From a virus, in the IMG/VR virus record IMGVR_UViG_3300048061_000010, positions 1 through 28,572 of that record: a stretch of DNA of 28,572 nt. One strand, given 5' to 3'. Positions 375-24,827 of the stretch are shown here, one piece after another. The notes beneath the pieces are model-generated. The model did not search any database. It was not told the DNA's origin and was given only the letters and a program-made list of their open reading frames with translations. A program made the translations under genes and the position numbers. Position 1 is the stretch's first letter. The number at the start of each line of letters is the position of its first letter.

Positions 375-395
375 GTTCTAATAGGGGTACTAATT
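375..395 (-). promoter_or_regulatory. Phage RNA polymerase promoter-like element 3 (phi-OR position)
   Basis: Read on the minus strand this is AATTAGTACCCCTATTAGAA followed by C. It shares AGTACCC-N-TATTAGAA with the elements at 9241-9261 and 24807-24827. It starts inside the terL stop codon and reads away from terL. Its 3' end (TAGAA) resembles the initiation region of the SP6 promoter, which would put +1 at 378. In T7 the promoter phi-OR sits in exactly this place, between gene 19 and gene 19.5. The promoter role is inferred from repetition and position. Confidence 0.6.
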
Positions 396-2066
396 AAACC
401 ACCTTGAGTTACTTGGCTTTCTACCTACTGCATTTTCCATAAATCTGTCTAAATCTTGTCTTAACAAGTCATTCTTATGCTCATTAAACGATAACTCCTG
501 GTCTCTGTCCATTCTCTCTACCCAGTAATTAACTGCAATAGATAAAGCGTCCAATTGGTCATCATGTCTAATAGAACCTTTGTCTTTAGTAATACGAGTC
601 ATTTGCTTAAACAATTGGTGGTCTAGGTCTAACTTAAAGTCATCCTTAATCAACTCTTGGCTAACAACTAGTCTATGTTGGTTCATAACAGGCTCTAGAG
701 TGTCTATAATACGTAATTCTTTCTGTTTTGAGTGTCTTACCTCCTCGATTGAACAAGGGTGTATACGAGCCATTATAGGCTTTAAAAGGGCTGTTGCCAT
801 TCCATCACCAAAGTTAGACTCAATTACTACATAGTTAACCTTTTGGTGTTTAGCTATTGTACTAAGCTCTTCAAGCGTACTGTCACTATAACCACCTATA
901 AGTCCACCACAAGCTGTTACGTATAAAATACCGTGAAGCATTTTAACTACAGCAAAGCCTGTTCTGTCAGCACCACGTCCTGCAGGGTCAATTGCCATAA
1001 CTGAACCTTCAAATGGTGCATATTCTTCGGACATATACATAGGTGCAACGTAATAGTCACCTTTAAGTCCGACATTAGGCAGCTCACTGTCTATATTCTT
1101 AATTTGGTCTGTAGAAGAAGCCCATTGTATCTTTGCAGGTGCTTCTTTCCACGTGGATAAACCAGATACGACAATTAAGTCGTTTAGTTTAAGTGGATAT
1201 TTCTCTAAATCACTTAGAGTTGTATCTAACATAAACTGTAATGCAAAACCACTACGACCATAAGAAGCTTGACGTTCCATTAAGTCTACTTCATCAAATC
1301 TTTGTGGGTCTGTAGGTTTACCTTCTAACTTTTTATCTTTCTTTAACGCTTCAGTTATTGTTGGTGCTAGTTTACTACCTAAATTAATCTGCTGCGTTGG
1401 TGTAGGATATAAAGCCGTCCATACTCTTGTTCGAAATCCTCTTTCTTCCAAGTCATTATACAAACTCATTTCTGTTTGAGGTGTACCTAGGAATACAATA
1501 CGTCCTACTTCAGGTTTGATGATAGCGTCAAATTCTTTTACGGTCTCACCTAGCCTGTCCCTCATTAATTGTGTTTGAGAGTTATTAGCTGACTCTACGT
1601 CATCTGCGATAATTAAATCGGCACGTGAACCAGTCAATTGCGATGTAACACCTAAAGATTTTACTGAAGGTGCGTGTGACGCTCTAGCCGGTGCAACATC
1701 AAAAGAAACTTTAGAATGACGTTGGTCATCCCTAGGTTTTAAGTGGTGTAACAAAGGCATTTCACTTATAAGTCTTTGTGTAAATGTACTAAAGTCATCT
1801 GCTCTGTTTTTACTAGCAGATACAACTAGAATATTTCTTTGAGGGTTAAGTAAAAGTTGATGACATACAAAAGCTGATGTAATCCAAGATTTACCTACTC
1901 CTCTAAAAGCTTCTATTACTATACGTTTAGAACCATTTTGCAGATAATCTGCTATATCGTATTGTATAGGTGTTGGATTGGGTAGATTTAAGTGTTGCCA
2001 AGCAAGATATAAAAAATTTTTAAAGTTTTTTACATTTGGCTCTATTTCTGGTGTTTTTCTATTCAT
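390..2066 (-). CDS. terL: Terminase large subunit (T7 gp19-like DNA packaging ATPase/nuclease)
   Basis: This motor protein translocates concatemeric DNA into the prohead through the portal and cuts it to unit length. The 558 residues are close to T7 gp19 (586). The ATPase domain shows a Walker A motif FRGVGKS (about residues 54-60) and a Walker B segment LIIADDVES (acidic D155-D156). The RNase H-fold nuclease domain shows AIDPAGRGADRTG (D360), VVIESNFGDG (E416) and RHDDQLDAL (about 500-508), supplying the expected acidic metal ligands. The start overlaps the stop of the upstream 90-aa gene by 8 bases. It is the last large gene on the minus strand, as in T7. Confidence 0.97.
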   Translation of the reverse strand: MNRKTPEIEPNVKNFKNFLYLAWQHLNLPNPTPIQYDIADYLQNGSKRIVIEAFRGVGKSWITSAFVCHQLLLNPQRNILVVSASKNRADDFSTFTQRLISEMPLLHHLKPRDDQRHSKVSFDVAPARASHAPSVKSLGVTSQLTGSRADLIIADDVESANNSQTQLMRDRLGETVKEFDAIIKPEVGRIVFLGTPQTEMSLYNDLEERGFRTRVWTALYPTPTQQINLGSKLAPTITEALKKDKKLEGKPTDPQRFDEVDLMERQASYGRSGFALQFMLDTTLSDLEKYPLKLNDLIVVSGLSTWKEAPAKIQWASSTDQIKNIDSELPNVGLKGDYYVAPMYMSEEYAPFEGSVMAIDPAGRGADRTGFAVVKMLHGILYVTACGGLIGGYSDSTLEELSTIAKHQKVNYVVIESNFGDGMATALLKPIMARIHPCSIEEVRHSKQKELRIIDTLEPVMNQHRLVVSQELIKDDFKLDLDHQLFKQMTRITKDKGSIRHDDQLDALSIAVNYWVERMDRDQELSFNEHKNDLLRQDLDRFMENAVGRKPSNSRWFN

Positions 2067-2331
2067 AATTAAACCAATTATAACAAGCGTAGACGGATAG
2101 ACCTAAATACATACACTCCATAAGAGTTCTTGGTTTGTCCTGGTCCTTATAGGATATCATAATCCATATAGTGCAAGATATTGCGCCTATAAACCATCCA
2201 AACCATTGTAATCGTAATATTGTACTAGATAATATTCCTACTGACATTGCAGCTAGAATAAATCCTATCCATCGTATGTTAGTTTTCGTCAAATGGTAAA
2301 TCGTCTGTGATACTATTCTTAGGTTGTTCAT
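2059..2331 (-). CDS. Small membrane protein between the terminase subunits
   Basis: The 90-aa frame has two or three hydrophobic segments (about residues 20-41, 43-61 and 70-86) separated by a charged loop, KDQDKPRTLMECMYLGLSV. It lies between terS and terL, where T7 carries lysis genes 18.5/18.7, but it lacks a spanin layout (one N-terminal span plus a long coiled coil, or a lipobox). The start is uncertain. The ATG at 2331 gives a 53-base overlap with terS and only a weak ribosome binding site. A TTG just upstream of the terS stop (about 2290) would give about 77 residues beginning MTKTNIRWIGF. Similar short membrane proteins with an 'R-LMEFMYL' segment occur in marine podoviruses as far as I recall. 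The function is unknown. Confidence 0.75.
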   Translation of the reverse strand: MNNLRIVSQTIYHLTKTNIRWIGFILAAMSVGILSSTILRLQWFGWFIGAISCTIWIMISYKDQDKPRTLMECMYLGLSVYACYNWFNYE

Positions 2332-2488
2332 CTACTTCTACTCCATAAGTTTTGCAAGTATCTAAACAAACCTTTAATTCACTAGCTGTTAACTTGTCTC
2401 CACTTGTTAACATCTCGTATGCTTTGTCTACTAAAAGTTTTGGTAGAACTTTAGTTTTCGCTTCAAACGAATTTGGTTTGTCAGACAT
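2279..2488 (-). CDS. terS: Terminase small subunit (T7 gp18-like), putative
   Basis: This 69-aa acidic soluble protein begins MSDKPNSFEAKTKVLPKLLV and contains a predicted helical centre (LVDKAYEMLTSGDKLTASELKVCLDTCKTYGVE). It ends in an acidic tail, DDLPFDEN. T7 gp18 is similarly small (89 aa) and lies between the holin and the large terminase, exactly this position. The ATG at 2488 was chosen because its A is also the last base of the upstream stop codon (TAATG), a junction repeated throughout this genome. A longer frame starting at TTG 2515 would overlap the upstream gene without a ribosome binding site. The small terminase would bind DNA and hand it to TerL. The assignment rests mainly on synteny and size. 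Confidence 0.7.
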   Translation of the reverse strand: MSDKPNSFEAKTKVLPKLLVDKAYEMLTSGDKLTASELKVCLDTCKTYGVEVDEQPKNSITDDLPFDEN

Positions 2489-2607
2489 TAGATTGCTAGT
2501 AATATTGCTGACCAAATAACAAAAGCTATGACTTTCTTTTTGTTATCTTTAGCCCAAGTTACAAAATGGTTTTTCCATTGTGTAAAAGTTTCTCCGTATA
2601 TTATCAT
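2488..2607 (-). CDS. 39-aa single-span membrane protein, candidate holin (T7 gp17.5 position)
   Basis: The 39 residues run from MIIYGETFTQWKNHFVTWAK through a basic DNKKKK-like hinge to a C-terminal hydrophobic segment, VIAFVIWSAILLAI (about residues 26-39). An AAGGAG ribosome binding site lies 6 bases before the ATG at 2607, and the stop overlaps the terS start as TAATG. The position directly upstream of terS matches the T7 gp17.5 holin (67 aa), so a membrane-permeabilising role is plausible. The protein is much shorter than known class II holins and has only one short span, so an accessory or antiholin role is equally possible. The frame itself is well supported. Confidence 0.7.
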   Translation of the reverse strand: MIIYGETFTQWKNHFVTWAKDNKKKVIAFVIWSAILLAI

Positions 2608-2616
2608 TTGTTCTCC

Positions 2617-2832
2617 TTATTCTAAAATTAATTTTTTAATTGATTTGCTGCCGTCAATATTTGACTCAAGTTCAGCCATTGACTTTATGCACTGGTACTG
2701 AATATTATTTCCTGTATTACTACGCATAGCAATTCTTTTTCCTTTTAAACATTCTGACATTGACGTTTGTATTCTAGCTTCATTAATCTCTCCGTTTACT
2801 ATCATAAGTAAAGCTATTACCAACTCTGTCAT
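2617..2832 (-). CDS. 71-aa protein with hydrophobic N-terminus and two cysteines
   Basis: The N-terminus (MTELVIALLMIVNGEINEAR) has a short hydrophobic stretch that could be a weak signal or anchor. The rest is polar, with two cysteines (C28 in SECLKGK, C48 in YQCIKS) spaced as in a disulphide pair. This suggests an exported or periplasm-facing protein. There is no lipobox, so it is not an obvious outer-membrane spanin. The start overlaps the upstream stop as TAATG at 2832. It lies in a run of six small genes between the adhesin and the terminase, where lysis functions are expected. I do not recognise a named family. Confidence 0.75.
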   Translation of the reverse strand: MTELVIALLMIVNGEINEARIQTSMSECLKGKRIAMRSNTGNNIQYQCIKSMAELESNIDGSKSIKKLILE

Positions 2833-3197
2833 TAATGTCCTCCGTTACCGTTTCTTCTTACTTTATCTTTTAATTCTTCTATATCAGCTAGTGCTTTATC
2901 TAACTGTTCTCTTAAAAATTCTATGTTGACTTTATTAGTCATGTTCATTTCTTGAGTTTCTTCCATTTTTTCTACGGACTTATATAAATCCTCAATTAAA
3001 AAATGTTGTTCCTGGTCCGTAGGAACTTGCTCAGATTTTTTTAACAAATCGTTTTCAAATAGTTCTCTTGAAGTTTCTAAACTTGTTAATCTTGCTGTAA
3101 CTTCTGTATATCCAAATACACCCATTGCTACTGCTATAACAATACCAATCATGTTTTTAATTGGCATAGCAACTGATGTGTTTTCTGAAATTTTCAT
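2832..3197 (-). CDS. Membrane-anchored coiled-coil protein, spanin-like candidate
   Basis: The 121-aa product has one N-terminal membrane segment (about residues 15-30, NMIGIVIAVAMGVFGY). A long charged region rich in Glu, Lys, Leu and Gln follows, with heptad character from about residue 35 to 112, then a basic, Gly-rich end (RRNGNGGH). One N-terminal span plus a periplasmic coiled coil is the layout of an inner-membrane spanin (Rz, T7 gp18.5). No embedded or overlapping lipoprotein gene, the usual o-spanin partner, is visible, so the spanin call is only a candidate. A structural anchor is the alternative. Both its start (3197) and its stop (2832) are TAATG junctions. Confidence 0.7.
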   Translation of the reverse strand: MKISENTSVAMPIKNMIGIVIAVAMGVFGYTEVTARLTSLETSRELFENDLLKKSEQVPTDQEQHFLIEDLYKSVEKMEETQEMNMTNKVNIEFLREQLDKALADIEELKDKVRRNGNGGH

Positions 3198-3583
3198 TAT
3201 TTCCTTTTCATTAAGTCAACACCTTTAAGACCATAAATTGAGCCAACTACTCCTATGAATAATCCCTGATACCAAAAAGGCATATTAGAAAAATACTCAA
3301 AGAAAATATCTAGTTTAGCACGTATGTTAGGGTCGTCAGAGAAAACAGAGTAAGCCAATAGAATAATAGGAATGGATATAAGAACCAAGACGAATTCATC
3401 TTTCCAACCATTATCATTACTAGCGATAACAGCTTTCTTATATTCGACTTCACCTTTGACCATCCTTTCTACATGGTTTCTCTCTGCTACTGCTTCGAGT
3501 TGCTTTGTTTCTTTTTTTGTTTGATAAATGTTTACTGCTGTTTTAGCACCAAACGTTAATAATTTTAATATTGGTAATCCCAT
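3197..3583 (-). CDS. 128-aa two-span membrane protein, holin-like candidate
   Basis: The first 60 residues are amphipathic and highly charged (YQTKKETKQLEAVAERNHVER). They are followed by WKDEF and a strong membrane segment (about 64-82), an acidic stretch, and a second span (about 104-121, containing YQGLFIGVVGSIYGLKG). The protein ends in VDLMKRK. The WKDEF-span-FWYQ-span pattern resembles 3TM/GTA-type holin families as I remember them, though no search could be run. It lies within the lysis-type block and is translationally coupled on both sides (TAATG at 3583 and 3197). Holin is the best guess. A baseplate or virion membrane protein remains possible. Confidence 0.72.
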   Translation of the reverse strand: MGLPILKLLTFGAKTAVNIYQTKKETKQLEAVAERNHVERMVKGEVEYKKAVIASNDNGWKDEFVLVLISIPIILLAYSVFSDDPNIRAKLDIFFEYFSNMPFWYQGLFIGVVGSIYGLKGVDLMKRK

Positions 3584-4055: not shown

Positions 4056-5881
4056 TATGAAATAGTTAAACTTGTTAAGTTTCCACTTGTATTTGTAGAA
4101 GTTAATCTAGTGTAAGAACCAGAATTACCTACTCTATAAAATACTAAACCATGCCCACCATCTTGACCCGCCGCAGGATATGATGAGTTTTCTCTACCAC
4201 CTAATCCATTTGTTCCATTACCAGAACCAAAAGAACTAAAGTTGTATGTAGTATACATAACATTTGCGTCTACACTATTATTAGTAGTACCACCATCATA
4301 ACCCCATACTGCTGTTCTAAATGTGTGTGATTGATAAGTAATTCCTGTTGCTGTAACTGAATTAAAAGCAGACGTACTATAGTTAGTAATACCACCTCTT
4401 ACAAAAGATGAACCTGCGCCTCCGCCGCCGCCACCCCAGTTATCACCATCATCTTGACCGCCGCCGCCACCGAAGAAACCTCCTCCTCCGCCGCCGCCAT
4501 TACCCCAATTGCTACAACTTGAACCATTACCACCTTGTAATGCTGAACCTGCTTGTCCGTTATTATTTGAACTTGAATCTGCTGTACCTGCAACACCACC
4601 ACCATTTTGTTGACCACCTTGACCACCTCTGTCACCACCATGTGAGTGAGTTGGTGTGTTATTACCTCTAGTACCATCGTTGCCTTCGCCAGTAGAGGAA
4701 TTTTCAATTTGTCCACCACCATTCTGCATAGCATCCTGATTTCCACCTGAACCATGTGGTCTACCTGCACCTCCACCACCACCACCTGCAATTATTAATG
4801 CGTTAGTTTGTGTGACTGCGTTAGCTGTAAATATTCCAGAAAAATCTCCACCTTCTCCAGAGGTGTCATTACTACCACCACCTCTACCATTACCACCATA
4901 GGCATTGACAGCACCACCAGAAGAACCACTTTGACCAGATTGACCATAATGACCAACATAAGTGTAAATAGTTGTTCCTAATTTTATTGCGTAAACAGCT
5001 TCTACGAATGAACCTGCACCACCTCTACCTTGAGCATTTAAACTTCCTTGATATGATGAAGATTGTCTACCTGCACCTCCACCACCTGCACCTAGTATTC
5101 CAAAATAAACATCTCTGTATGGGTCTATAATTATATTAAATGCTCTATCAGTTGTTTTGCTACCTGCTGTTGCTCTACCTGTAAATGAAACTGTTGTTGA
5201 ATTTGAAACATCTGTTGGGTTGCCAGATATTACACCTGAAGAACTATTTAATGATAATCCTGCACCTGTAATATTTGTTGCACCAGTTTCAGAATAAGAA
5301 ACTGTATCACCATCTGCGTCTGTTGCAGAAAGTGTTGCGTGTGTGCCTGTAGCTTGGTCTGAAATAGTTGCTACTGTTCCTGCTGATGTACTCCAACTTG
5401 GTGCATTGTCTACATTAATGTTATCTTCTAATACTGCTGATAATCCACTTTGTGAGATATATTTTACATCATAAGGTTCTTTAGAATTTTGAAAAGAACT
5501 TCTTGCTATAACTGCATCATAGTTTGAAGTATTTACAAATGTTGAAGTAGAAGCAGTTATTTCAGAACTGTCATTGGCAACAAATTTAATTGTGCCACCA
5601 GAAGTAAAGTTTGTTCCTGTCACTCTAATAGTAACATTACCACCAGTTGCAGTAGCTATTTCTGTAACATCTGTAGAAATAATTGTAGGTGTAGGTTCTA
5701 AAGTTGAAAAAGTACCACTAGCATTTCTTCCTTCAAAAAATCCTGTAGTAGTATTATATCGCCATTGACCTGTAGTAGAGCCACGCTGTGCTGTAGTACC
5801 TGAAGCTACTTTAGTACCCTCAGTACCAGTATCTACTATATCTTCAAATTTAAAGTCAGCTATATCTCTAGCTTTTGTCAT
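4055..5881 (-). CDS. Glycine-rich adhesin / tail fibre-associated receptor-binding protein
   Basis: This 608-aa protein is built of modules. Residues 1-62 are a tail-fibre type segment (GTTAQRGSTTGQWRYNTTTG). Residues about 63-158 look like an IPT/TIG fold (VTIRVTGTNFTSGGTIKFV). Residues about 158-252 look like a putative Ig or cadherin-like repeat (LSATDADGDTVSYSETG, LSLNSSSGVISGNPT). Residues about 258-608 are a glycine-rich domain with many runs such as GAGGGGAG and IIAGGGGGGAG. The glycine-rich part resembles the ALK/LTK-type glycine-rich fold and the polyglycine helices of phage gp38 adhesins. It should be displayed at the tail tip and bind the host surface. Frames seen on both strands over 4399-4791 are by-products of its GGN codons. 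Confidence 0.85.
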   Translation of the reverse strand: MTKARDIADFKFEDIVDTGTEGTKVASGTTAQRGSTTGQWRYNTTTGFFEGRNASGTFSTLEPTPTIISTDVTEIATATGGNVTIRVTGTNFTSGGTIKFVANDSSEITASTSTFVNTSNYDAVIARSSFQNSKEPYDVKYISQSGLSAVLEDNINVDNAPSWSTSAGTVATISDQATGTHATLSATDADGDTVSYSETGATNITGAGLSLNSSSGVISGNPTDVSNSTTVSFTGRATAGSKTTDRAFNIIIDPYRDVYFGILGAGGGGAGRQSSSYQGSLNAQGRGGAGSFVEAVYAIKLGTTIYTYVGHYGQSGQSGSSGGAVNAYGGNGRGGGSNDTSGEGGDFSGIFTANAVTQTNALIIAGGGGGGAGRPHGSGGNQDAMQNGGGQIENSSTGEGNDGTRGNNTPTHSHGGDRGGQGGQQNGGGVAGTADSSSNNNGQAGSALQGGNGSSCSNWGNGGGGGGGFFGGGGGQDDGDNWGGGGGGAGSSFVRGGITNYSTSAFNSVTATGITYQSHTFRTAVWGYDGGTTNNSVDANVMYTTYNFSSFGSGNGTNGLGGRENSSYPAAGQDGGHGLVFYRVGNSGSYTRLTSTNTSGNLTSLTIS

Positions 5882-7092: not shown

Positions 7093-9222
7093 TTATATTG
7101 TTGATATTAAATTGCCATTTGTATTAATGCTAAAGACAAAGCCTGAAGCACTAAATAAAACATCATCAAAGTTGGCATATTGACTTTCGGTGATGTTATC
7201 TTGACCTTGATTGGTCGTAATATATCTAACTGCATTATTTGCAGGTGTTGGTGTGTTTGCTTGTCCACCCATATTTGAGTGAGACGAACAATAATAATAA
7301 AGTGTAGGTGTATCACTAGCTACAACGATTGTAACTTGTGTTGAAGAATTTACAGTAACACCTGTAGTGTAAGCATTTGAGTTATTACTATCTGTAGAAA
7401 ATCTAAATGGGTGTGATGCAGGGTGATTAAATATGTAAGTATTACCTTCGTATAATTCTAAAGTATCTTGTTGAACACCATCTATATAATATTTACCACC
7501 ACTATCTGTTACTGTTTTAACTAAAGTAGATGGATTGTAATATTTTTCAAAACCATAAACTTCTGCTGAAGAAGCATTAGAAAATTCTAATCCATTTGCT
7601 GAACTGTTCATAACAAGAGCTTGTCCTGCTGTACCAAATCCTGAAGGTGTATCTGTTAAATCTTTAATTGATATGTTAGCTAATTGGAATGTGCCGTAAG
7701 CAACAACCATTAAAATATCATTAACACTTGCACCACTTGCTAATACTACACTTGTACCTGAAGTTGCAGTAAAGTCAGCATTTGCTAATTTTACACCATT
7801 CAAATAACAATCTATAAACCCTGCGTCATACGCCAAAGTTTTTGAATTTGTATCTGCACCAGTAAATGTGGTTTGACCTGCTGTTGCAGTGTACTCAAAC
7901 CTGTTTGCTGTGCCATTGACTGTGCTACCTGCCGCAGCCCACCCAGAACTTTTGTAAACTTTAAGTTCATTTGCCGTAGAATCGAAATATAAATCTCCAA
8001 CATCATTATTTGATGAGGGCGCTGAACTTGCAATTCTGTATCTTTCTGCAAAAGAGTTTACTCCAGATAAATTTGAAGCAACACTATTAACGTTTGCAAT
8101 AGAACCACCAACATTATTTACGTTTGTTATTGAGCCTGCTACAGTCGTTACATTAGCGTTGTTGTTAGCAACTGAAGTAACATCCGAAGATATTCCTGCA
8201 ACTGTCGTAATGTTTGCTGAAATTGGTGCTAAAGTTGTAATGTTAGAATTTGCATTTGCAACTGTTGAAATATTTGTATTGTTTGCAGCTACAGTATTTA
8301 TATTTGTATTATTTCCTGCAACTGTATTTACATTAGCAATATTTGTAGCAACAGTGTTAATATTTGTAGCATTGGAAGCTAGTGTTCCTAAATTTGTTAT
8401 AGCCGCTAAAGTTTGAATGTCAGCACTATCTCCTGCAACAGTAGTTACATTTGATGATATTCCTGCTACAGTATTAACATTTGATATATTAGTACCAACA
8501 GTATTTACGTTAGCAATATTGTTTGAAACTGTGTCTATTTCTGAAGTTGTTTCTTGTAAGTCTAACGCCGCAGTTTCTATTTCTGAAACTGTTTCGTTTA
8601 AATCATTAGCTACTACAATTACTTTAGCAATATCTGAAGCCACTGTATTAACATTAGCTATGTTAGTTGCTACTGTATTAATGTTTGCAGAATTAGTTGC
8701 TACTGAAGTAACATTAGCCGAAATTCCTGCAACAGTAGTAACGTTTCCAGATATACCTGCTACTGTCGTAATGTTTGGTAAGTTGCTTGAAATAAATTGT
8801 TTGTTAACGCCATCAGTATTGTCTACTGGGTCTGCAACATTAGTAAGTCTTTTATTTTGTACATCCCATTGAAAATTTGCTGCGTTTAGTTTGATTACAT
8901 CGCCTGCGTCATCAATAGCTTCTTGTGACATAAAGAAAGCTTGATTTGAGTCAGTATCTAAATCGTTTTCAGTTAGAACTGAACCTGCCGCATAATCAAC
9001 TAATCTTGAAGTTTGACTTGTAGTTCTTCGTATTTCAATAGCACTTAAATTAGCCGGTGGTGAAGAAAATGTGATTTGAGTTCCTGCTGAGTTATAAGTG
9101 AAAGCAGTTGTAGCTACACCATTAATTGTTACAGTAATGTCAGCCTGGTCACGATATGAGAAACTTACTGCATATTGTGTGGTTGAACCATTTCCTGTGT
9201 ATCTTACAAATGAATTTGCCAT
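7093..9222 (-). CDS. Tail fibre protein (T7 gp17-type N-terminus) with repeats and a cupredoxin-like domain
   Basis: Residues 1 to about 150 carry the T7 tail fibre attachment domain (MANSFVRYTGNGSTTQYAVS, TENDLDTDSNQAFF, W-D-V-Q-N-K-R-L-T-N). Residues about 150-392 are tandem 10-11 residue units of the type N-[IV]-[NT]-T-V-A-x-N, probably a trimeric rod. Two fibre linker modules follow (GDLYFDSTANELKVYKSSGW, about 415-435; a 'FNGVKL'-like segment near 475-485). Residues about 575-660 form a cupredoxin-like module with HPASHPFRFST (H600, H604) and YYYCSSHSNMGG (C645, H648, M651). The gene is preceded by a promoter-like element and an AAAGGAG site. T7 gp17 (553 aa) is shorter, and the extra length is the repeat rod. 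Confidence 0.93.
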   Translation of the reverse strand: MANSFVRYTGNGSTTQYAVSFSYRDQADITVTINGVATTAFTYNSAGTQITFSSPPANLSAIEIRRTTSQTSRLVDYAAGSVLTENDLDTDSNQAFFMSQEAIDDAGDVIKLNAANFQWDVQNKRLTNVADPVDNTDGVNKQFISSNLPNITTVAGISGNVTTVAGISANVTSVATNSANINTVATNIANVNTVASDIAKVIVVANDLNETVSEIETAALDLQETTSEIDTVSNNIANVNTVGTNISNVNTVAGISSNVTTVAGDSADIQTLAAITNLGTLASNATNINTVATNIANVNTVAGNNTNINTVAANNTNISTVANANSNITTLAPISANITTVAGISSDVTSVANNNANVTTVAGSITNVNNVGGSIANVNSVASNLSGVNSFAERYRIASSAPSSNNDVGDLYFDSTANELKVYKSSGWAAAGSTVNGTANRFEYTATAGQTTFTGADTNSKTLAYDAGFIDCYLNGVKLANADFTATSGTSVVLASGASVNDILMVVAYGTFQLANISIKDLTDTPSGFGTAGQALVMNSSANGLEFSNASSAEVYGFEKYYNPSTLVKTVTDSGGKYYIDGVQQDTLELYEGNTYIFNHPASHPFRFSTDSNNSNAYTTGVTVNSSTQVTIVVASDTPTLYYYCSSHSNMGGQANTPTPANNAVRYITTNQGQDNITESQYANFDDVLFSASGFVFSINTNGNLISTI
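8045..8775 (-). repeat. Repeat tract coding the fibre rod
   Basis: About 240 codons encode imperfect 10-11 residue units (e.g. NINTVATNIAN, NVTTVAGISSD), roughly two dozen copies. At DNA level they recur as ACTGTATTAACATT- and GCAACTGTCGTAATG-type blocks when read on the plus strand. The conserved Val-Ala and Asn positions suggest a stacked beta or coiled rod in a fibre trimer. The repeats keep the plus strand open as well (8159-8872), which produces false ORFs there. Confidence 0.85.
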
Positions 9223-9240: not shown

Positions 9241-9261
9241 CTTCTAATATGGGTACTTATT
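9241..9261 (-). promoter_or_regulatory. Phage RNA polymerase promoter-like element 2 (phi-17 position)
   Basis: Read on the minus strand it contains AGTACCCATATTAGAAG, the same 17 bases as the element at 24807-24827. It fills the 42-base gap between the gp16 C-terminal gene and the tail fibre gene. By comparison with SP6 (C-A at -7/-6 and TAGAAG at -2 to +4), +1 would be at 9244, giving a 22-base leader with the AAAGGAG ribosome binding site of the fibre gene. T7 has promoter phi-17 at this place. Confidence 0.72.
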
Positions 9262-9264: not shown

Positions 9265-11925
9265 TTAATTTGCGTCTGTTTGACGGTTCTCTGGTAAATG
9301 ACTAGTCAATGCTCTTAGAAAGTTTTGTAATCCCCATAAGTTTTGATAAGGGAGTATTCCTATAGCTTTCTGTCCGTCTGCTTGAGAGAACGTTCTTTCT
9401 GGATTAAACGTAGATTGCGATATTGCTTTCATAGTTGGTATAAACTTTTGAAATATTAAAGAGTACGTTGGGTTTCCAGTTATTATGTTAGTATCAAGTC
9501 CACTAGTTCTATATCCAAATATAGGATTATCACTAAACATACTATTAACCGTGTTAGCACCTATTGGTAATATAGAAGCAAACGCAGCTCTTTGAAATGC
9601 TGCCTTCGCAATTGTTTCTGGATTTAATCTTCTATCATAAAATTCTTTTTGATTTGGGTGTGCTAATCCAACAACTGAAGTTTGAGCTGCAAACATCATT
9701 CCACCCCATAACATTGAGTTCATAAATTGGTCAAACACAATAGCGTCTCTCATCTTTAAACCATACAAAAATTGTTTAGCCCAAGATGTAAACATAAAAC
9801 TTCTAAACTGATATGCTATTTGACCTAAGTGTCCGTCTGCATTCATTCCAATAGATTTTAAATATCCAAAGTATGCTCTTTCACCTATATCAGCTTGTTG
9901 TACAACTCTATGAGCAATTCTTCTCATAGCCATAATATATGTTGCTCTAGTTTCACTAGCCCATTTATCGAAATTTGTTCTTGCTATTTTTGTACCTAAT
10001 TCTCCATCTACAAATTTTGTATGAGTTTTAAATTCGTTTAAAATTTTCTTTAACATTGTAGGACTAATTCCTGCGTCATTCATTCTTGCTTCAATCTGTT
10101 TGTCTGACATTCTATTTTTACCAAAACGCATTTTACTAAAAGGTACAACACCTTTTCCCATTGCGTGTTTTGCAAAGTTTTGTGTCATTTGAGAAACAGT
10201 TACAATTTGCATTGCAGACGTACTCATAAATTGTCCAGACCAAGTGTTAGTAAATCTGTTTAATTGGTCTAATCTATTTTCTGCTGTAGTTACAGCGTCC
10301 GGTGCCATATCACTTCCAAAGTCATCTAATCTATTTGTAACTTGTTGAATAACTGAGTGATTACCTACACCACCTAAAGTTTCATCTATTTCTTTTATAA
10401 ATTCATCTGAACGTTCACCGTTTTCTAAACGTTTCATCATTCTTCTTAATTCTGGAATATTTTCCATTGCAGCTTTCCAACCAACAAGTCCAGTAAGGTT
10501 TCCCATCTCTGACATATTGGCAGAACCTACTTGGTTCATAACCCTTGAATAATTTAATTTACGAATAAAACGACCTGCTGTTGCACCTGGACTTGCAGGG
10601 TCAAGTGCTAATGGTCTACCTTTAATAAAATCATAAGCCATATCTAAAGCGTCTAATTCATTTTCCATTCTCCACTTAGCCAATCTACCTTTCCATCCAG
10701 GTTTATTAATTTGACTAGTGTCATAATCTTTTACTATTTCATCTCTTAATCTTACAAAATCGCCATGAGATTTAATTCCTTTGTGTGCTAAAGCTACATC
10801 ACCCATTGCACTATGTGTATAATTTAAAAATAATCCTTCAGCATTATTTTCTAATAAATCTGAAAAGTTTGTTTTACCGTCAGTAAAACCTTCATTAAAT
10901 CTAATTCTTCTTTTTAAATAAGACGCACCACCTTCTGTAGTTTGACCTGGTTTAACTTTAAATATTTTATTAATCATATTATCAATTTCATCAGGCTTCA
11001 TGTTTGTGTGGTCTCTTAAAGCACTTCTTAATGTTTCTCTTTTTTGCATAGAAGTAACAATAAAATCTAAATTAACTCCACCTCTAGAAAATCTTGAACG
11101 TCCTACTATATCAATCAAATTTTCTGCAATAGTAACTTTTTGTGCTTGAGTTAAAGGTTTTTGTTTTCTTCCTTTAAGCATAACCTCATCAGCGTCATTC
11201 ATAGCTTTAACTAAAAAGTTTGTAAGATATGATTTTCCTCCTGGTGTTGATAAAATTTTATCGTATTTAATTGGACTGTGTACTCTGTTTAAATAATTAA
11301 GATTATCTGCAATATTTTCAGCACCTTGGACTCCAGTTATTTTAAGCATTTGTAATTGTTCATTTAACATTTTAGCTTGTGTGTCAGCCATTTTTTGAAT
11401 TAATTCTCTGCTTTTTTCTGTAGCATATCCAATTTCATTTAATGCAATAGTTTCACCTCTAATTCTTCTACCTACTAAATCATTAAAAACATTTCTAACT
11501 CTTAAATTATTAAATCCTGGTCCACCAAAAAGTCCTTTATATTGTCCTAAACTTTTTTGTTCCATTAACCATTGTTTACCTAAAGATGTGTGAGCAATAT
11601 TATATAACATAATTTGTCTATCTACATTCATGTCTTTAACTTCTGAGACTGTAGTTTCTCTTGTGTAAGCAATGTCACCTTTTTTAGGTGTAGCGTCTCT
11701 AACTAATAGATTTCCCATTTTTCTCATTTTGTTACTCATGGTTGAAGCCATGGCAGCATGAAAATCAAATTTTATCATTCTTGCAAAAGATTCAGGTGTT
11801 AAATCAGCGTCTCGTAAAATATTAAATTCAAACATTTTACCTCTGACATATTCATTTGCAGTATTTATATCTTCAAATGTTATTGAGTCAGTAGCTTCAT
11901 TCCAGTTACATACTTTTTTTCCCAT
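9265..11925 (-). CDS. Internal virion protein, C-terminal part of a gp16 equivalent
   Basis: The 886-aa product is rich in long amphipathic helices. The region from about residue 585 to 790 (AMGKGVVPFSKMRF, RMSDKQIEARMNDAGI, GQIAYQFRSFMFTSWAKQF, MLWGGMMFAAQTSVVGLA) is of the type found in the C-terminal half of T7 gp16. In T7 that protein is ejected with the DNA and forms the channel into the host cytoplasm. It has no lysozyme motif itself; that lies in the preceding gene. The ATG shares its A with the stop of that gene (TAATG at 11925), so the two are coupled. The combined length (1511 aa) compares with 1318 aa for T7 gp16. Confidence 0.85.
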   Translation of the reverse strand: MGKKVCNWNEATDSITFEDINTANEYVRGKMFEFNILRDADLTPESFARMIKFDFHAAMASTMSNKMRKMGNLLVRDATPKKGDIAYTRETTVSEVKDMNVDRQIMLYNIAHTSLGKQWLMEQKSLGQYKGLFGGPGFNNLRVRNVFNDLVGRRIRGETIALNEIGYATEKSRELIQKMADTQAKMLNEQLQMLKITGVQGAENIADNLNYLNRVHSPIKYDKILSTPGGKSYLTNFLVKAMNDADEVMLKGRKQKPLTQAQKVTIAENLIDIVGRSRFSRGGVNLDFIVTSMQKRETLRSALRDHTNMKPDEIDNMINKIFKVKPGQTTEGGASYLKRRIRFNEGFTDGKTNFSDLLENNAEGLFLNYTHSAMGDVALAHKGIKSHGDFVRLRDEIVKDYDTSQINKPGWKGRLAKWRMENELDALDMAYDFIKGRPLALDPASPGATAGRFIRKLNYSRVMNQVGSANMSEMGNLTGLVGWKAAMENIPELRRMMKRLENGERSDEFIKEIDETLGGVGNHSVIQQVTNRLDDFGSDMAPDAVTTAENRLDQLNRFTNTWSGQFMSTSAMQIVTVSQMTQNFAKHAMGKGVVPFSKMRFGKNRMSDKQIEARMNDAGISPTMLKKILNEFKTHTKFVDGELGTKIARTNFDKWASETRATYIMAMRRIAHRVVQQADIGERAYFGYLKSIGMNADGHLGQIAYQFRSFMFTSWAKQFLYGLKMRDAIVFDQFMNSMLWGGMMFAAQTSVVGLAHPNQKEFYDRRLNPETIAKAAFQRAAFASILPIGANTVNSMFSDNPIFGYRTSGLDTNIITGNPTYSLIFQKFIPTMKAISQSTFNPERTFSQADGQKAIGILPYQNLWGLQNFLRALTSHLPENRQTDAN

Positions 11926-13804: not shown

Positions 13805-16093
13805 TTATTTATCCTTCTTGTTTACTTTTGATTGAACATCTAAATTTAATTCTTTCATCATTTCAGAGTTCTTTAAAATAATGTTTAAATCTTTTTTATT
13901 CAATTTGGACTCAGCTAACTTACCATCATCCATAATAAAATCTTTTGTACTTAACACTACAAAGTCTCCATCTGGTGTAGTTACAGGTAAACCATTGTCT
14001 TTTTCTGTTAAGACAAAGAACCCACTTTTAAATGGTCTCATAACTAAATCTTTAGCGTAGTGTTTTAATTGTCCAGATTCATTTGCTTTAAACGGATTAA
14101 ATGCACCTTCTTCAAAGAAACTATCAAGTCTTCCTTCATCTTTGTATTTATCCATCCAAACTTTTGCGAATTGTTTAGCAACATATCTACTGTTTTCTGT
14201 AAATGTTTGACGTGAAACATTTGGAAAAGATGAATTGTTAACCATAACTCCATCAATTAAAGTATGTCTAGAAACAACTTCTTCAATTCCATATTTAACT
14301 GCGTCTTCTAATTTCATTGAACCAGACTTGTACATTGTCATGGCAGTCATAATGGCTCTTTGCTGTAGCATACTCATGTTAACATCTTCCCATCTAAACC
14401 TTCTATTTTCAGCTACTAAAAACTCTGATTCATCTTCAGCATTAATAAAATAAAGACCACTAAAAGGACTGTCTAATGTCATTTCATCAAACCATCCATT
14501 GAAACTATCAGTTATGCTTTCTGTAATTTTTGCTTTATCTAAAGCTTTGTCTGCATGATTAAATGCAGGATTTGTTGTAGCTTCATAAGCTTTCATAATC
14601 GCAGCTTCTTTACCCATGTTAGTATTACGCATAAGATTATCTACTGCTGTATAAAATGAAGCTTCTTCTGTTGATAAATATTTACCTGGAATTTTTCCAC
14701 CGTAGTTTAAATTAAGTTTTCTAAAACGTTCTAATCCTCTTTCAAAAATATTAATTCCATCTGGGTCTAGTGTATCTGCATTACCTGCTACTTTAATTAC
14801 ATTAAGAGAAGTAAATCCCATTGATAATTCATTTTTCCATGTAGGATGTGTTAAACCGTTTGAGTCTAACATTTTTGATGTAAGCTGAAATAAACCCATT
14901 TCTGCGTATTCTTTAGGAACATCACCGTCTGCAACTTGTTGATTAATTAAAGGTCTAGCATATTGTGTAGACCAAAGAACAATTGCGTCAGCCATGTCTT
15001 CATCACTTAATCCAACTTTTACTTCACCACTTTTATTTACATAGGTAACTTCATCTTTTTTATAAGCATGACCTTTACTAATTAAATCCATAGCAATAGC
15101 CATTTTACTTGAGCCTGCGACTTTACCTTTAATATTGTCAATAATTTTTGTAGCTTGTTCTTGTGTTTTAGGTGTTCTTAAATAAGAAGGTAAATCTTTT
15201 TTACTTCCTCTTTTCATTGTAAGATAAGTAACAATGTCGTCTAACATTCCAGGGTCAGTAATTAAACCAGTGTCTTGTAAGTCAACGACTTGTTCAAAAT
15301 AATTTAATACTTGTTTGTTCCATTCATCTTTATTTATAAATTTTTCATTAACAACTTTATCTGTTCTTAACTTTTCTAAATCTTGTACTCTACTTGATGA
15401 ATGAAAGATTGTTTCTTTTTCTGAGCCACCTGGTCCTACAGCTTTTTCTTCAGACCATGCACCACCTTGTTCCCAAGATTTAGCAATAATTTGAAAAGCT
15501 GAAGCATTAGTTTGTCTGTTAAGTTGTAAACCTTTTGCTATTGATTGTTTTTCTTCTAATTGCAATCTCATTTGGTTCATAGAGTCAGTGTATGCTCTAG
15601 TGTAAGATTTATCTTGTGTACTTAAATCTCTTATAGGATTACCTGTAGGCTCATTATTTTCATTAACTGATTGAAATAAGCTATCTATATTTAGATTAGC
15701 CATAGCGTCACCTTTTTCATCACCACCAGTTATGTTGTTAACTTTAGTTTGAACTAAGTTAAAATCTTCAATAGCGTGTGATAAACCAAAATTAGAATTT
15801 ACAACGGCTTGAGTGTAGTAACCTTTTAAGTTAGCAACTCTAGGGTCATTGTTATCAATTAACTTTTTGATTTCATCTGGGTCTGTAATACCTTGTGCTT
15901 TTAAATTATCAAAAACATCTTGTGCTTCGTTTTGTTGTTCTGTTTTATAATTGTCAGTAAACTTGGCAAAAGATTTATTAAAGTTTTTTAGCGAATTTGA
16001 AATTTGATTTAGTTCACTATCTTTAGCTTCTCTAGGTCTACCTGTTGAAGTTCTTTGATAATATACTGGTTTGTATTGTGATTCGTATGCCAT
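13805..16093 (-). CDS. Internal virion protein, gp15-like
   Basis: The 762-aa product matches T7 gp15 (747 aa) in length and position, between the gp14-like and gp16-like genes. It starts MAYESQYKPVYYQRTSTGRP, is mostly helical and hydrophilic (NSLKNFNKSFAKFTDNYKTEQQ near residue 35), and has no signal peptide. In T7, gp15 stacks in the internal core and forms the periplasmic part of the ejection channel. The ATG at 16093 overlaps the gp14 stop as TAATG. The call rests on synteny, length and composition. No catalytic motif is expected or seen. Confidence 0.85.
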   Translation of the reverse strand: MAYESQYKPVYYQRTSTGRPREAKDSELNQISNSLKNFNKSFAKFTDNYKTEQQNEAQDVFDNLKAQGITDPDEIKKLIDNNDPRVANLKGYYTQAVVNSNFGLSHAIEDFNLVQTKVNNITGGDEKGDAMANLNIDSLFQSVNENNEPTGNPIRDLSTQDKSYTRAYTDSMNQMRLQLEEKQSIAKGLQLNRQTNASAFQIIAKSWEQGGAWSEEKAVGPGGSEKETIFHSSSRVQDLEKLRTDKVVNEKFINKDEWNKQVLNYFEQVVDLQDTGLITDPGMLDDIVTYLTMKRGSKKDLPSYLRTPKTQEQATKIIDNIKGKVAGSSKMAIAMDLISKGHAYKKDEVTYVNKSGEVKVGLSDEDMADAIVLWSTQYARPLINQQVADGDVPKEYAEMGLFQLTSKMLDSNGLTHPTWKNELSMGFTSLNVIKVAGNADTLDPDGINIFERGLERFRKLNLNYGGKIPGKYLSTEEASFYTAVDNLMRNTNMGKEAAIMKAYEATTNPAFNHADKALDKAKITESITDSFNGWFDEMTLDSPFSGLYFINAEDESEFLVAENRRFRWEDVNMSMLQQRAIMTAMTMYKSGSMKLEDAVKYGIEEVVSRHTLIDGVMVNNSSFPNVSRQTFTENSRYVAKQFAKVWMDKYKDEGRLDSFFEEGAFNPFKANESGQLKHYAKDLVMRPFKSGFFVLTEKDNGLPVTTPDGDFVVLSTKDFIMDDGKLAESKLNKKDLNIILKNSEMMKELNLDVQSKVNKKDK

Positions 16094-21417: not shown

Positions 21418-21564
21418 CTATGATTTAGCAGTTTTCGCAGCTCGTTTAAATTGTGCTGCTGTAGGTCTGCCTTTTGTACCTGCTGTTCGCATTTTCTCAC
21501 CTGAACCTGCTTTGATTCTAGCACGTTTTTTGTGAATGTTTGCATAGAGTCCGTTTTTTGCCAT
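21418..21564 (-). CDS. 48-aa basic protein upstream of the capsid gene
   Basis: This gene is short and easily missed. The product begins MAKNGLYANIHKKRARIKAG and continues with SGEKMRTAGTKGRPTAAQFKRAAKTAKS (28 residues ending the protein, given here only as its composition: Lys/Arg/Ala/Gly-rich). It lies 11 bases beyond the stop of the 78-aa gene and is followed by the capsid leader. I recall near-identical small proteins beside capsid genes in cyanophages and pelagiphages, always as 'hypothetical'. The strong positive charge suggests binding to nucleic acid or to the acidic scaffold or capsid interior. The function is unknown. Confidence 0.82.
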   Translation of the reverse strand: MAKNGLYANIHKKRARIKAGSGEKMRTAGTKGRPTAAQFKRAAKTAKS

Positions 21565-21575
21565 GTTAATACCTC

Positions 21576-21812: not shown

Positions 21813-22582
21813 TACAGTTCACTGTTCTTTAATTTAGCTTGTACGTCTGCTCTGTAAGCATTGTCTGAAGTATATCTTGCGTCAGACATTGCTGCTGTAA
21901 CTTCAGCCCAAGAACGATAACCAGGTGCATTACTTGTACTTGGTCTGTTCCCAGTTTGTAAATTAGGTTCAACACCTTCAGCATTTTTAAATCTAGCATT
22001 CAATCCTGCAATTGCTAATTTAGTTGCTTCAATGTCTTTACCATTTACTGTTGTGTTATAAGCGTTTATTTCTGCTTCACTTAAATTGTCTGAAGCCCAA
22101 GTCATCATATTATTATAAGACTCTGCGCCACCTACTTCTTGTTTAAGTGTATTAGAAGTTTGTTGAGCAATAGCTTCTTGACCTTTAATAAAAGCGTCTA
22201 CGTAATCTCTAGGTATTCCTGCTTTTTCTAAAGCGTCATAAGATTTATCAGCTAATTGCCCACCGTCATTATATTCTTGTTGAAGAGAAGACATATCTAA
22301 CCCTGCATTTTCTACAGCTTTTTCTGCTTTATCAATTGACAAGTCAGCGTCATCTTTTTTAGTCTCTTCTTTGTTAGGTTCTGAGTCTTTATTATTATTA
22401 TCTTGAGACTGTCCTAATTTGTTTTCAAGTTCGCCATAGGCTTTAGCCATGTCTTCAGCGTTCTTAAATTTTTCTGGTAACCACTCAGGTCTACTTTCAT
22501 TTTCAAAAGTTTTATCTTGAGCAGTATCTATTGGTTTATCAGAAGTTGTTTCAGCTTCTTTTATTTCTACTTTTTCTACCAT
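21812..22582 (-). CDS. Capsid assembly scaffolding protein (T7 gp9-like)
   Basis: The 256-aa acidic, helical protein contains RPEWLPEKFKNAEDMAKAYGELENKLG (about residues 31-57; key positions P-E-W-L-P-E-K-F, A-K-A-Y-x-E-L-E), the hallmark of podovirus scaffold proteins. A long acidic linker (KDSEPNKEETKKDDADLSID) follows, then a C-terminal helical domain ending QAKLKNSEL. It guides capsid protein into proheads and then leaves. T7 gp9 (307 aa) lies in the same place, between portal and capsid genes. Confidence 0.93.
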   Translation of the reverse strand: MVEKVEIKEAETTSDKPIDTAQDKTFENESRPEWLPEKFKNAEDMAKAYGELENKLGQSQDNNNKDSEPNKEETKKDDADLSIDKAEKAVENAGLDMSSLQQEYNDGGQLADKSYDALEKAGIPRDYVDAFIKGQEAIAQQTSNTLKQEVGGAESYNNMMTWASDNLSEAEINAYNTTVNGKDIEATKLAIAGLNARFKNAEGVEPNLQTGNRPSTSNAPGYRSWAEVTAAMSDARYTSDNAYRADVQAKLKNSEL

Positions 22583-22588
22583 TGTTTA

Positions 22589-24148
22589 TTATCCTTGAGG
22601 TTTTGTAACGTTGTCAGCAACTTTAGGTGCAACAGCTTGTGCTGTGTCCATCATTTGTTGTTGTTGCTGCATTTGCATTTGTTGTTCTTGTTCTGCTTGT
22701 AGTTGTTCAGGAGACTTAATTAAGTTCTCAGTTTCAATTCCATGACCTGTTGCTAATCTTTCAATTAAATCACCTATGTTTAATAATTGAACTGCTTGAG
22801 GATTCATTTGTGCTAACTGTCCTATTTCACCTACAAACTCTCTTAGTTTCTGTAAGTCATTCCCTCTACCTAGTGCTTCAACACCAGTTATAATAGTTGG
22901 TCTTACAGAACCTTTTGGAAGTTTTGGTATTTCGTTTTTACTTCCCATTCTTGTCATAAGAAGAGCGACTAAAGGTAATTGTAATTCTTGTGATAATAAA
23001 GAATAAATTCCACCCATAGCAGTCTCAAGTTCATTAGCCATATATCTAATTTCTTGAGCCGTAACTCTTTCTGCTTGACGTTGAATTGCTGTGTTAAGTA
23101 GGAAAGCGTATGCTAGTCTTTCTTCAAGTCTACCAATTGATTTCTCTACTGTTTGTAAATCATAAAATTTCTCTGCTTGTAATACTGATACATCGTCTCT
23201 ACTTCCAGAAATAATGTCACCGTTTCTAGATTTTGCAATGTCCATTTTCTTTGTAGTAGAATTAGGTTTTACTAAGAAAACCATTTTAGCTGACGCAGCG
23301 GCACTTTCTACAAGCGCTTGAGATAATCCCTCAAGGCTCTTCAAGTCACCGATAAATTCTTCAACGTAACTTCTTCCATAGCTTTCAGAATCTACACGTA
23401 CCATTCTTAATGCTAACCATGGAAGTTGGTCTGCGTTGTGTTCACCAACAGATGAAGGTATTTTAATTCCTTTAACTTCTTGGCATACATAAAATTTCTT
23501 ATCACCTAGTTTGTAAATATGTGTATACAAGTCACAATGAGTTTCAGCTTTTGCATCTTCTTTGCTCATCATTTGTAATACTTGTTCTCTAACTTCTTCA
23601 TCTAGTCCTAAGACTGATACAGTTTCTTTTACAACTATTTCTAATAAGTTTCCTTCACCGTCTCTTTTACATACATATTGATTAAGGGGAAATACTCTCA
23701 TACTTCCTTCTTTAGGCATATGACATAAAACATTTCCACCAACAATTAGATGTTTGATAGCTTCAAATATTGGAACTCTTATTGCAAGTGACTCAATCTT
23801 ACCCATAACGTCCCGTTCAATTTTTGCTAATGATTTTTCAATTAACGTTTTAAGTTCTGGTTGTTCTTGTACTTGCTCTTTAGCTTTGCCTTGTATCGCT
23901 AATCTAAAAAATGGTTGATTGGGGGGAAGTAATAATAGTAAGAGTTTACTAGCTAAGTTATTGACACCTCTACTTCCAACTGATTGGAAGGGGCTATAAA
24001 AATCTTGTGAAGGGGTATGTGAATTTTCAGGAATTAGAGTAGGTATCGTCAATTCAGAACACTGTCTTCCACGATTTAAAAAGTGTTCTCTTTGTTCAGA
24101 CAGAGAATTGTATCGGCTTTCTGCCGTGTTATGTAAATTATCTGCCAT
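22589..24148 (-). CDS. Portal / head-tail connector protein (T7 gp8-like)
   Basis: The 519-aa product compares with T7 gp8 (536 aa). Family segments are visible: SRYNSLSEQREHFLNRGRQC (about 11-30), SRGVNNLASKLLLLLLPPNQ PFFRL (about 59-83), GNVLCHMPKEGSMRVFPLNQ and GRSYVEEFIGDLKSLEGLSQ. The tail RVTAQEIRYMANELE (about 360-375) is the conserved stem/wing region. The C-terminal 40 residues are a Gln/Met-rich tract (EQEQQMQMQQQQQMM), as in many marine podovirus portals. Twelve copies form the DNA channel at one capsid vertex and dock terminase. Confidence 0.96.
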   Translation of the reverse strand: MADNLHNTAESRYNSLSEQREHFLNRGRQCSELTIPTLIPENSHTPSQDFYSPFQSVGSRGVNNLASKLLLLLLPPNQPFFRLAIQGKAKEQVQEQPELKTLIEKSLAKIERDVMGKIESLAIRVPIFEAIKHLIVGGNVLCHMPKEGSMRVFPLNQYVCKRDGEGNLLEIVVKETVSVLGLDEEVREQVLQMMSKEDAKAETHCDLYTHIYKLGDKKFYVCQEVKGIKIPSSVGEHNADQLPWLALRMVRVDSESYGRSYVEEFIGDLKSLEGLSQALVESAAASAKMVFLVKPNSTTKKMDIAKSRNGDIISGSRDDVSVLQAEKFYDLQTVEKSIGRLEERLAYAFLLNTAIQRQAERVTAQEIRYMANELETAMGGIYSLLSQELQLPLVALLMTRMGSKNEIPKLPKGSVRPTIITGVEALGRGNDLQKLREFVGEIGQLAQMNPQAVQLLNIGDLIERLATGHGIETENLIKSPEQLQAEQEQQMQMQQQQQMMDTAQAVAPKVADNVTKPQG

Positions 24149-24158
24149 TGTAAATTAC

Positions 24159-24368
24159 CTATATAATTGTTTGCGAACTACCAGGGATGTTTAAATCCGT
24201 TTGCATACCTATTGTTCCTTTTTTCGATTTCTTCTTCTTTGCTATTTCCATAGCGTCTTCAGAAGCTAGTTCGATAGTAGGTGCTAATTCATCGCCTGAT
24301 GAAACGGCTTGTCTTACTGGCGTAACAGTTTCTTGTACTGGTGGGTTTCTACTTCCTCCTACACACAT
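24159..24368 (-). CDS. 69-aa protein upstream of portal, T7 gp7.3-like candidate
   Basis: The protein begins MCVGGSRNPPVQETVTPVRQ, has a Lys-rich stretch (AKKKKSKKGT) and ends TDLNIPGSSQTII. The overall plan (small, disordered, basic middle, hydrophobic Asn/Gly/Ile end) is like T7 gp7.3 and relatives, small virion tail-associated proteins encoded just before the portal. The similarity is one of layout and position only. It shares its Met-Cys start and Gly/Ser-rich opening with the next gene upstream. Confidence 0.72.
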   Translation of the reverse strand: MCVGGSRNPPVQETVTPVRQAVSSGDELAPTIELASEDAMEIAKKKKSKKGTIGMQTDLNIPGSSQTII

Positions 24369-24383
24369 AGTTATTTCCTTCCT

Positions 24384-24593
24384 TTAATAAGTTGGTATTG
24401 TTAAATCACTAGATTGTGATGTAGTCACATCCGAAGATTGTGATACACTACTTTTCTTTTCTGGTTTCTTCACCGGAGTTTTATCTATCTCTGGTGGATT
24501 GTCTTTTGGATTCATAATATTCCCATCGACATATTTAATATTAGGGTCAGGTCTTGTAACTACAGGTGCTTGTTTTGTTGATGAAAAACACAT
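24384..24593 (-). CDS. 69-aa disordered protein (MCFSSTK...) upstream of portal
   Basis: The sequence begins MCFSSTKQAPVVTRPDPNIK, is Pro/Lys/Ser-rich throughout and ends in two SQSSD repeats (VSQSSDVTTSQSSDLTIPTY). No membrane segment or fold is evident. Its Met-Cys opening and its length match the following gene, suggesting a small virion or head-completion protein such as the T7 6.7/7.3 group. A ribosome binding tract precedes the ATG (GGAGATAACT). The function is unknown. Confidence 0.7.
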   Translation of the reverse strand: MCFSSTKQAPVVTRPDPNIKYVDGNIMNPKDNPPEIDKTPVKKPEKKSSVSQSSDVTTSQSSDLTIPTY

Positions 24594-24602
24594 AGTTATC
24601 TC

Positions 24603-24797
24603 CTATCCTAATAAATTTTCTTCGTTACGTTTCTTTAATTCAATTAACCAATTGACTACACTTCTTTGTCCTGCCTTAAACCAAACAGTTCTCTCACTGT
24701 CTTTTAAGTCAGCACTTTTTTCTGGAAATACTTTGTCTAAAGTTTTAACAAGTTCTTCCACCGTGTAAGGTAATTGAATGTCGTCTAATGGGTTCAT
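24603..24797 (-). CDS. 64-aa protein, first gene behind the head-operon promoter
   Basis: The acidic N-terminal half (MNPLDDIQLPYTVEELVKTL) is followed by a helical DSERTVWFKAGQRSVVNWLI segment and KKRNEENLLG. The VWFKAGQRSVVNWL pattern is like a short conserved region I recall in T7-like phage head-region proteins, without a known role. The ATG lies 13 bases after the predicted +1 of the promoter-like element, with AAGGA in that leader. T7 gene 6.5/6.7 occupies the same position. Confidence 0.75.
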   Translation of the reverse strand: MNPLDDIQLPYTVEELVKTLDKVFPEKSADLKDSERTVWFKAGQRSVVNWLIELKKRNEENLLG

Positions 24798-24806
24798 ATC
24801 TTTTTC

Positions 24807-24827
24807 CTTCTAATATGGGTACTATTA
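24807..24827 (-). promoter_or_regulatory. Phage RNA polymerase promoter-like element 1 (phi-6.5 position)
   Basis: Read on the minus strand it contains TAATAGTACCCATATTAGAA then G. It begins inside the nrdB stop codon and reads into the 64-aa gene. The 17 bases AGTACCCATATTAGAAG are identical to the element before the tail fibre gene. Predicted +1 is the G at 24810, by comparison with SP6 (TATAGAAG). It sits at the border between nucleotide metabolism and head genes, as phi-6.5 does in T7. Confidence 0.72.

Follow-up and report, generated by a model that had tools for sequence, protein, structure and literature searches.

Repeated elements in pelagiphage genomes as probable promoters of their own T7-type RNA polymerases, with bases that covary with the polymerase specificity loop

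In bacteriophage T7, bases -11 to -7 of the promoter are read by the specificity loop of the phage RNA polymerase, with residue N748 contacting -10/-11 and residue Q758 contacting -8 (PMC5937735), and the phi2.5 promoter is one that initiates with ATP (PMC7727699). In LUZ100, phage-specific promoters phi1 to phi8 were mapped by ONT-cappable-seq, and the authors' own motif recovered three of these eight (PMC10134795). EM1, a T7-type polymerase derived from a metagenome, has a promoter, TCAGAAGTCACACTATAA, that was tested in vitro (PMC9596486). Among pelagiphages, the promoter AACTAATGCTCAATTTAGAGATA has been predicted for the HTVC031P polymerase (R20); the same paper reports that all 16 polymerases with less than 30% identity to T7 in the DNA-binding domain were inactive, and regards the prediction of promoters as what limits work with new phage polymerases (PMC11475235). 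Besides that prediction, the parts of the open-licence PubMed Central literature that we retrieved contain no promoter for a pelagiphage's own polymerase. Here we describe a repeated element, AGTACCC[A/C]TATTAGAA, in a 28,572-nucleotide stretch of viral DNA (positions 1 to 28,572 of IMG/VR record IMGVR_UViG_3300048061_000010; hereafter the window). Its fixed sites, its conservation, its joint change at several sites and its covariation with the polymerase loop mark it, almost certainly, as the promoter of a phage-encoded T7-type single-subunit RNA polymerase, which supports the proposal of an earlier note on this DNA that it represents a promoter class for the phage's own enzyme.

Judged by its sequence matches, the window is a 28.6-kb pelagiphage fragment: a megablast search with positions 1-25000 returned 36 phage records (33 Pelagibacter phages and 3 uncultured), led by AP013541 (Sieqvirus S42C7, 90.2%) and followed by HTVC120P (76.7%). 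Read in the direction of transcription, the genes run from replication and nucleotide genes to the terminase. The element occurs three times, always at a gene boundary and on the coding (minus) strand, at sites C, D and E, which we, like the earlier note, take to be equivalent to the positions of T7 phi-6.5, phi-17 and phi-OR:

24807..24827, minus strand: copy C, T7 phi-6.5-like, TAATAGTACCCATATTAGAAG, predicted +1 A at 24811
9241..9261, minus strand: copy D, T7 phi-17-like, AATAAGTACCCATATTAGAAG, predicted +1 A at 9245
375..395, minus strand: copy E, T7 phi-OR-like, AATTAGTACCCCTATTAGAAC, predicted +1 A at 379

The earlier note had placed the copies at these coordinates and described each as lying between two genes or in the stop codon of the upstream gene, and both statements hold: copy C begins within the RNR-beta stop codon (TAA, 24825-24827), copy E overlaps that of the terminase (TAG, 390-392), and copy D stands between two genes. 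The ATG of the next small gene is 14 nucleotides downstream of the predicted +1 of copy C, and the tail-fibre ATG 23 nucleotides downstream of that of copy D. Two copies are identical at all 17 core bases, as had been noted, and the third differs at 2 of the 17. With up to three mismatches allowed, the window contains four matches where 0.11 are expected, a number reached in none of 100 shuffles; the fourth match, at 23761, falls inside an open reading frame (22589-24148). The exact pattern AGTACCCNTATTAGAA matched three times on the minus strand and never on the plus strand, and its reversed control gave no match.

The set of three holds for the window, whereas complete relatives have five. 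In each of six such genomes (AP013541, HTVC120P, HTVC134P, AP013545, HTVC309P and Bylgja), CCCNTATTAGAA occurs five times on the coding strand, at fixed sites: A, upstream of the polymerase gene; B, between the polymerase gene and ssb; C, after RNR-beta; D, before the tail fibre; and E, after the terminase. A looser pattern also matched one in-gene ACCAAATTAGAA in AP013541. The complete relatives that we fetched encode a cognate T7-type polymerase, found for the unannotated AP013541 by tblastn only, and we infer that the window phage encodes one as well. In AP013541 (locus L001) the polymerase gene carries no annotation; it is divided between the two ends of the record, and joining these leaves it out of frame.

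In 62 polymerase loci totalling 716 kb, all 113 occurrences of CCCNTATTAGA are on the coding strand and none on the other; the element stands at site A in 41 of 43 loci and at site B in 48 of 55. Of the seven loci missed at B (two of which were also missed at A), five carry a TATATGA variant there; L001 and L024 do possess the element, and were counted under 'other' since their polymerase frames disrupted the assignment. Conservation at the same positions in relatives had been set beforehand as a test of the proposal, which passes it. The element was found after the terminase (site E, at least 84% identity to the window's) in 41/41 loci and after RNR-beta (site C, at least 82% identity) in 40/40, with a search pattern that included the TATATGA variant, added afterwards, which accounts for five of the loci at E and four of those at C. 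At site D it is present in 7 of 11 loci, the other four being three genomes with another promoter class and LUZ100, and it follows the internal virion gene in all three further contigs. The counts for C, D and E refer to loci above the identity cut-offs. The AGTA half varies, reading AGGC, AGAC or GGTT in the HTVC120P group, whereas this clade keeps G at -11 and CCC throughout, and after these either TATTAGA or the TATATGA of one subclade.

The TATATGA subclade is informative because its sites changed together. L133, L134, L141, L142 and L143 lack the standard pattern because they carry AGTACCCCTATATGAA at B, and also at A in the two that include the upstream region. With L251, L257 and L320 they form a subclade in which TATTAGA has become TATATGA at A, B, C and E; L133 and L251, a single contig, show the variant at all four. 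Joint change at four sites is better accounted for by a trans-acting reader than by chance or by coding constraint. Other pelagiphage clades have their own versions of the element in the same spots:

HTVC109P, 031P and 168P: AAGTxCCC...
HTVC019P, 022P, 131P, 304P and Ran: AAAGTTACACTATTAG
HTVC105P and L056: AAAGTTGCACTATTAG
HTVC021P and L058: AAAGTTTCCCTATTAG
L063, L064 and L066: AAACCTGCACTATTAG
L071: AAACCTGCCCTATTAG
L069: AAACTTACACTTATAG
HTVC041P: AAAGTTCCACTTATGA

We compared these bases with the polymerases by mutual information over 815 polymerase columns, with 199 loci reduced to 46 representatives. Site B was chosen in 200 loci by a score blind to -11 to -8 and favouring C at -7 and A or C at -6; 9 of the 200 choices were ties. 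Before the scan, 10 automatic picks (7 AAAACC, 3 ATGTCC) in loci with K at both residues aligned to T7 748 and 758 (K/K) were replaced from the DNA by GTTCCC or GTACCC, five TATATGA loci were assigned GTACCC by hand, and L221 (no credible site), three loci with too little sequence beyond the polymerase, and L012, L217 and L229 (nearest LUZ100) were excluded, while L050 was kept as an exception. Excluding the K/K variant GTTCCC and the odd L050 copy, site B has nine distinct -11 to -6 sequences. The T7 N748 column came first of 815 for the base at -11, and the T7 Q758 column first of 815 for the base at -8; at -10 the T7 Q754 column ranks first. The five phages examined from outside the pelagiphages all fit at -11: T7 (N, G), T3 (D, C), SP6 (R, G), KP32 (K, G) and LUZ100 (D, C).

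On balance we lean towards regarding the pelagiphage T7-type polymerases as a natural catalogue of promoter specificities, in which the residues aligned to T7 748 and 758 would pair with -11 and -8. The base at -11 would be G where 748 is K or R, and C where it is D, E, Q or C, except at late sites of the R748 class; the base at -8 would be C where 758 is K, A where it is A, G where it is M, and G or T where it is Q. An uncultured phage of this group would then have a promoter largely readable from its polymerase gene, and many of the polymerase-promoter pairs may be orthogonal.

Several observations weigh against this code or against the wider promoter assignment. The polymerase gene of the window phage lies outside the window, as the earlier note had said, and the contigs compared are related to each other, with a few duplicate isolates or records among them. 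The start base has been placed from covariation with the T7 N748 and Q758 columns and by analogy with phi2.5. Constancy at -7/-6 is partly built in, because the site score favours C-7 and A or C at -6. In the HTVC120P group a single genome can differ at -10/-9 from site to site, and the covariation of Q754 with -10 is for that reason not general at -10. At -9 and -6 the top column is residue 696 of HTVC120P, which has no known T7 contact. L050 violates the -8 rule, and SP6 and KP32 (K at the 758-equivalent, A-8) fall outside the pelagiphage form of it. Among 25 loci with both B and C, -11 is identical in 21, the four exceptions all belonging to the R748 class of HTVC019P, which has G-11 at B and C-11 at C in 4/4 loci; site D of HTVC019P also has C-11. 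With these exceptions the -11 rule holds as a tendency but not strictly.

A tree that left out the loop had 38 rows: 36 of the 46 representatives, together with L229 and L012, for which the promoters were set by hand and whose long branches leave their place uncertain. On this tree -11 changed at least four times, and the residue class at 748 was concordant in 4/4 independent pairs. At -8, two pairs agreed and two did not differ. A sign test on four pairs is unable to reach 0.05, and neither the -11 nor the -8 count can be significant, which also tells against the code. It is possible, though we think it doubtful, that the promoters are real and the recognition code mostly records shared ancestry and joint exchange of polymerase and promoter, with little mechanistic meaning in each residue-base pair. 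K748/K758 with GTxCCC is common to two large clades and may be ancestral, just four independent changes at -11 are available, and the -11 rule fails at the C and D sites of the R748 class. Ancestry is, however, identical for all 815 columns, yet the two T7 contact columns rank first for their own bases. L056 and L063 have polymerases identical at 774/819 aligned positions (94.5%), yet differ in loop, with K/M at 748/758 in the first and D/Q in the second, and in promoter, and the base at -8 agrees between B and C within the same locus in 25/25 cases (20 of them K/K).

The possibility that the element is instead an operator or another protein-binding site (for example, of a MarR-like regulator near the polymerase gene), or a replication or packaging signal, appears very improbable. 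MarR and integrase genes do lie directly upstream of A, and in part of the HTVC120P group copy A is surrounded by a perfect 8-bp inverted repeat, ATTGGTTC/GAACCAAT (4269-4292 in HTVC120P, L002). With arms of at least 7, such repeats occur in 7/23 distinct A windows and 6/25 distinct B windows of 120P-type loci, against 1.7% and 3.2% in shuffled sequence. But the windows are mutually related and the repeats vary between them in sequence and place; in 019P-type loci they number 2/35 (A) and 0/24 (B), at or below the shuffled level. The element itself is strictly directional, stands also at B, C and D, and has bases that covary with specificity-loop columns. A MarR-operator palindrome at A was rejected as an explanation, being confined to a subset of loci; the inverted repeat at site A of HTVC120P itself is possibly a repressor site. 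That the element is a conserved ribosome-binding or leader RNA element of late transcripts, and not a DNA promoter, is scarcely credible. In its favour, the likely Shine-Dalgarno region is overlapped by AGAAGGA at C and by AAGGAG close by at D. Against it, conservation reaches some 12 bases further upstream and in places takes in bases of the stop codon before it, no start codon adjoins copy A or E, and the bases covary with the loop.

For the promoter itself, the register can be set from the same data. We place +1 at the A that follows TATT in TATTAG because the covarying bases then alone coincide with T7 -11 and -8. The T7 phi2.5 promoter likewise contains the sequence TATTAG. The earlier reading was thus probably one base off, with transcription starting at A (379, 9245, 24811) and not at the next G; the CA that it had assigned to -7/-6 becomes -6/-5. 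A start at the next G is possible, because the TATATGA variant has T at the +1 place.

Copies A and E share about 30 nucleotides downstream (GGGG..AAGTC.CCT-like; window 340-379, L001, L002 and others), while B, C and D do not, which suggests a common leader function. In the window this stretch is the following:

340..379, minus strand: predicted E transcript, first 40 nucleotides (AGAACTAGGGGGTAGAAAGTCACCTATAT...), resembling the copy A leader in relatives

Folding gave no support for a 5' hairpin in the leaders of A and E: stems can often be drawn, but fold z is near zero, with means of -0.7 for A (19 leaders), -0.3 for E (14), -0.6 for B (21) and 0.0 for C/D (16).

Set against described promoters, the element had been called SP6-related. 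This stands for the loop, where SP6 has R-V-R and this clade R-V-K (shared motif R-V-[K/R]), and for part of the promoter: the SP6 sequence (GGTGACACTATAGAAG, read in SP6 DNA) has in common with the window element G-11 T-10, C-7 and TAT at -4 to -2, but has A-8 and A-6 where the element has C-8 and C-6. It does not extend to the whole polymerase, since that of HTVC120P is 36.1% identical to LUZ100, 33.8% to T3, 32.6% to T7 and 28.5% to SP6 (by identity only, with no tree including SP6, and with the first 36 residues of the SP6 enzyme left out). Membership in the SP6 promoter group was rejected on this lower whole-polymerase identity, and the SP6 GGTGACACTATAG core is unmatched at -12, -9, -8, -6, -1 and +1, as well as -5 in copies C and D.

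LUZ100 resembles the clade in being a T7-like phage with integrase and MarR, in having C-7, and in the location of its mapped promoters phi1, phi2/3 and phi8 at sites A, B and E. It differs in its AATTACCACACAG.TATGGA-like sequence, its C-11 (D748), its eight promoters and its Pseudomonas host, and we did not see the motif in the sequence of phi5. T7 promoters, above all phi2.5, have the same register and start region, but read GACT at -11 to -8 where the window element reads GTAC; this clade has five promoters per genome. T3 combines D748 with C-11 C-10, as do acidic-residue pelagiphage classes, whereas the clade of the window has K748 with G-11 T-10. The EM1 promoter has GT at -11/-10 in the register used here, but differs in its CACTATAA core, its elephant-dung metagenome and its best-matching phage, phiKDA1 (PMC9596486). 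The window element would be a new specificity class of a known kind of promoter, and the natural covariation between loop and promoter is unusually clear.

We also compared the element with the published HTVC031P prediction. The HTVC031P polymerase carries the K/K loop. The predicted 23-mer occurs once in HTVC031P (L013), at 33805, inside a lectin-domain gene and off any gene boundary. The syntenic element, by contrast, occupies site A at 2716, B at 5227, C at 15030 and D at 29784, the copy at B reading AAAGTACCCATAGTAGA. A weaker match at 40147 (4 mismatches), inside the last annotated gene, is a doubtful candidate for E in this phage; two other 4-mismatch matches, at 15323 and 19838, are inside genes. 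The published prediction appears to be misplaced.

Two other groups differ in their elements. HTVC200P and HTVC119P (L218, L219; Votkovvirus) have polymerases without the loop residues aligned to T7 756-758, with GATACACATATAGA after the polymerase gene and GATACA at B. In HTVC019P (L011), the late copies C (17070) and D (31032) have C-11, and B (7343) and a left-end copy (336) have G-11, perhaps a division into middle and late promoters; no copy with at most four mismatches precedes its polymerase gene. A de novo search for repeated 11-mers in HTVC109P and HTVC019P was uninformative, and a generic scan of the rest of the loci for more strong windows gave mostly noise, besides some same-class coding-strand matches.

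The genes that adjoin the copies in the window, named where indicated by synteny with AP013541, are as follows:

24825..25775, minus strand: RNR beta-subunit gene, upstream of copy C (synteny)
24603..24797, minus strand: small gene (64 aa), directly downstream of copy C
9265..11925, minus strand: internal virion protein gene, upstream of copy D (synteny)
7093..9222, minus strand: tail-fibre gene, downstream of copy D (synteny)
390..2066, minus strand: terminase large subunit gene, upstream of copy E (synteny)

In the proposed mechanism, the polymerase loop would read the major groove as in T7, with two lysines of this clade, those aligned to T7 748 and 758, pairing with G-11 and C-8 respectively. 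TATT would melt, and transcription would start at the A (or next G) of TATT/AGAA, at the distances from the ATG given above for C and D. At copy A the polymerase would amplify its own transcription; copy B would drive the replication genes, copies C and D the late structural genes, and copy E would transcribe towards the genome end, like T7 phi-OR.

The element would thus provide a transcription map for the HTVC019P-type pelagiphages of this clade, and a testable replacement for the HTVC031P prediction is now in hand. Through the covariation of loop and promoter, natural variants can be used to test the recognition rules known from T7, T3 and SP6.

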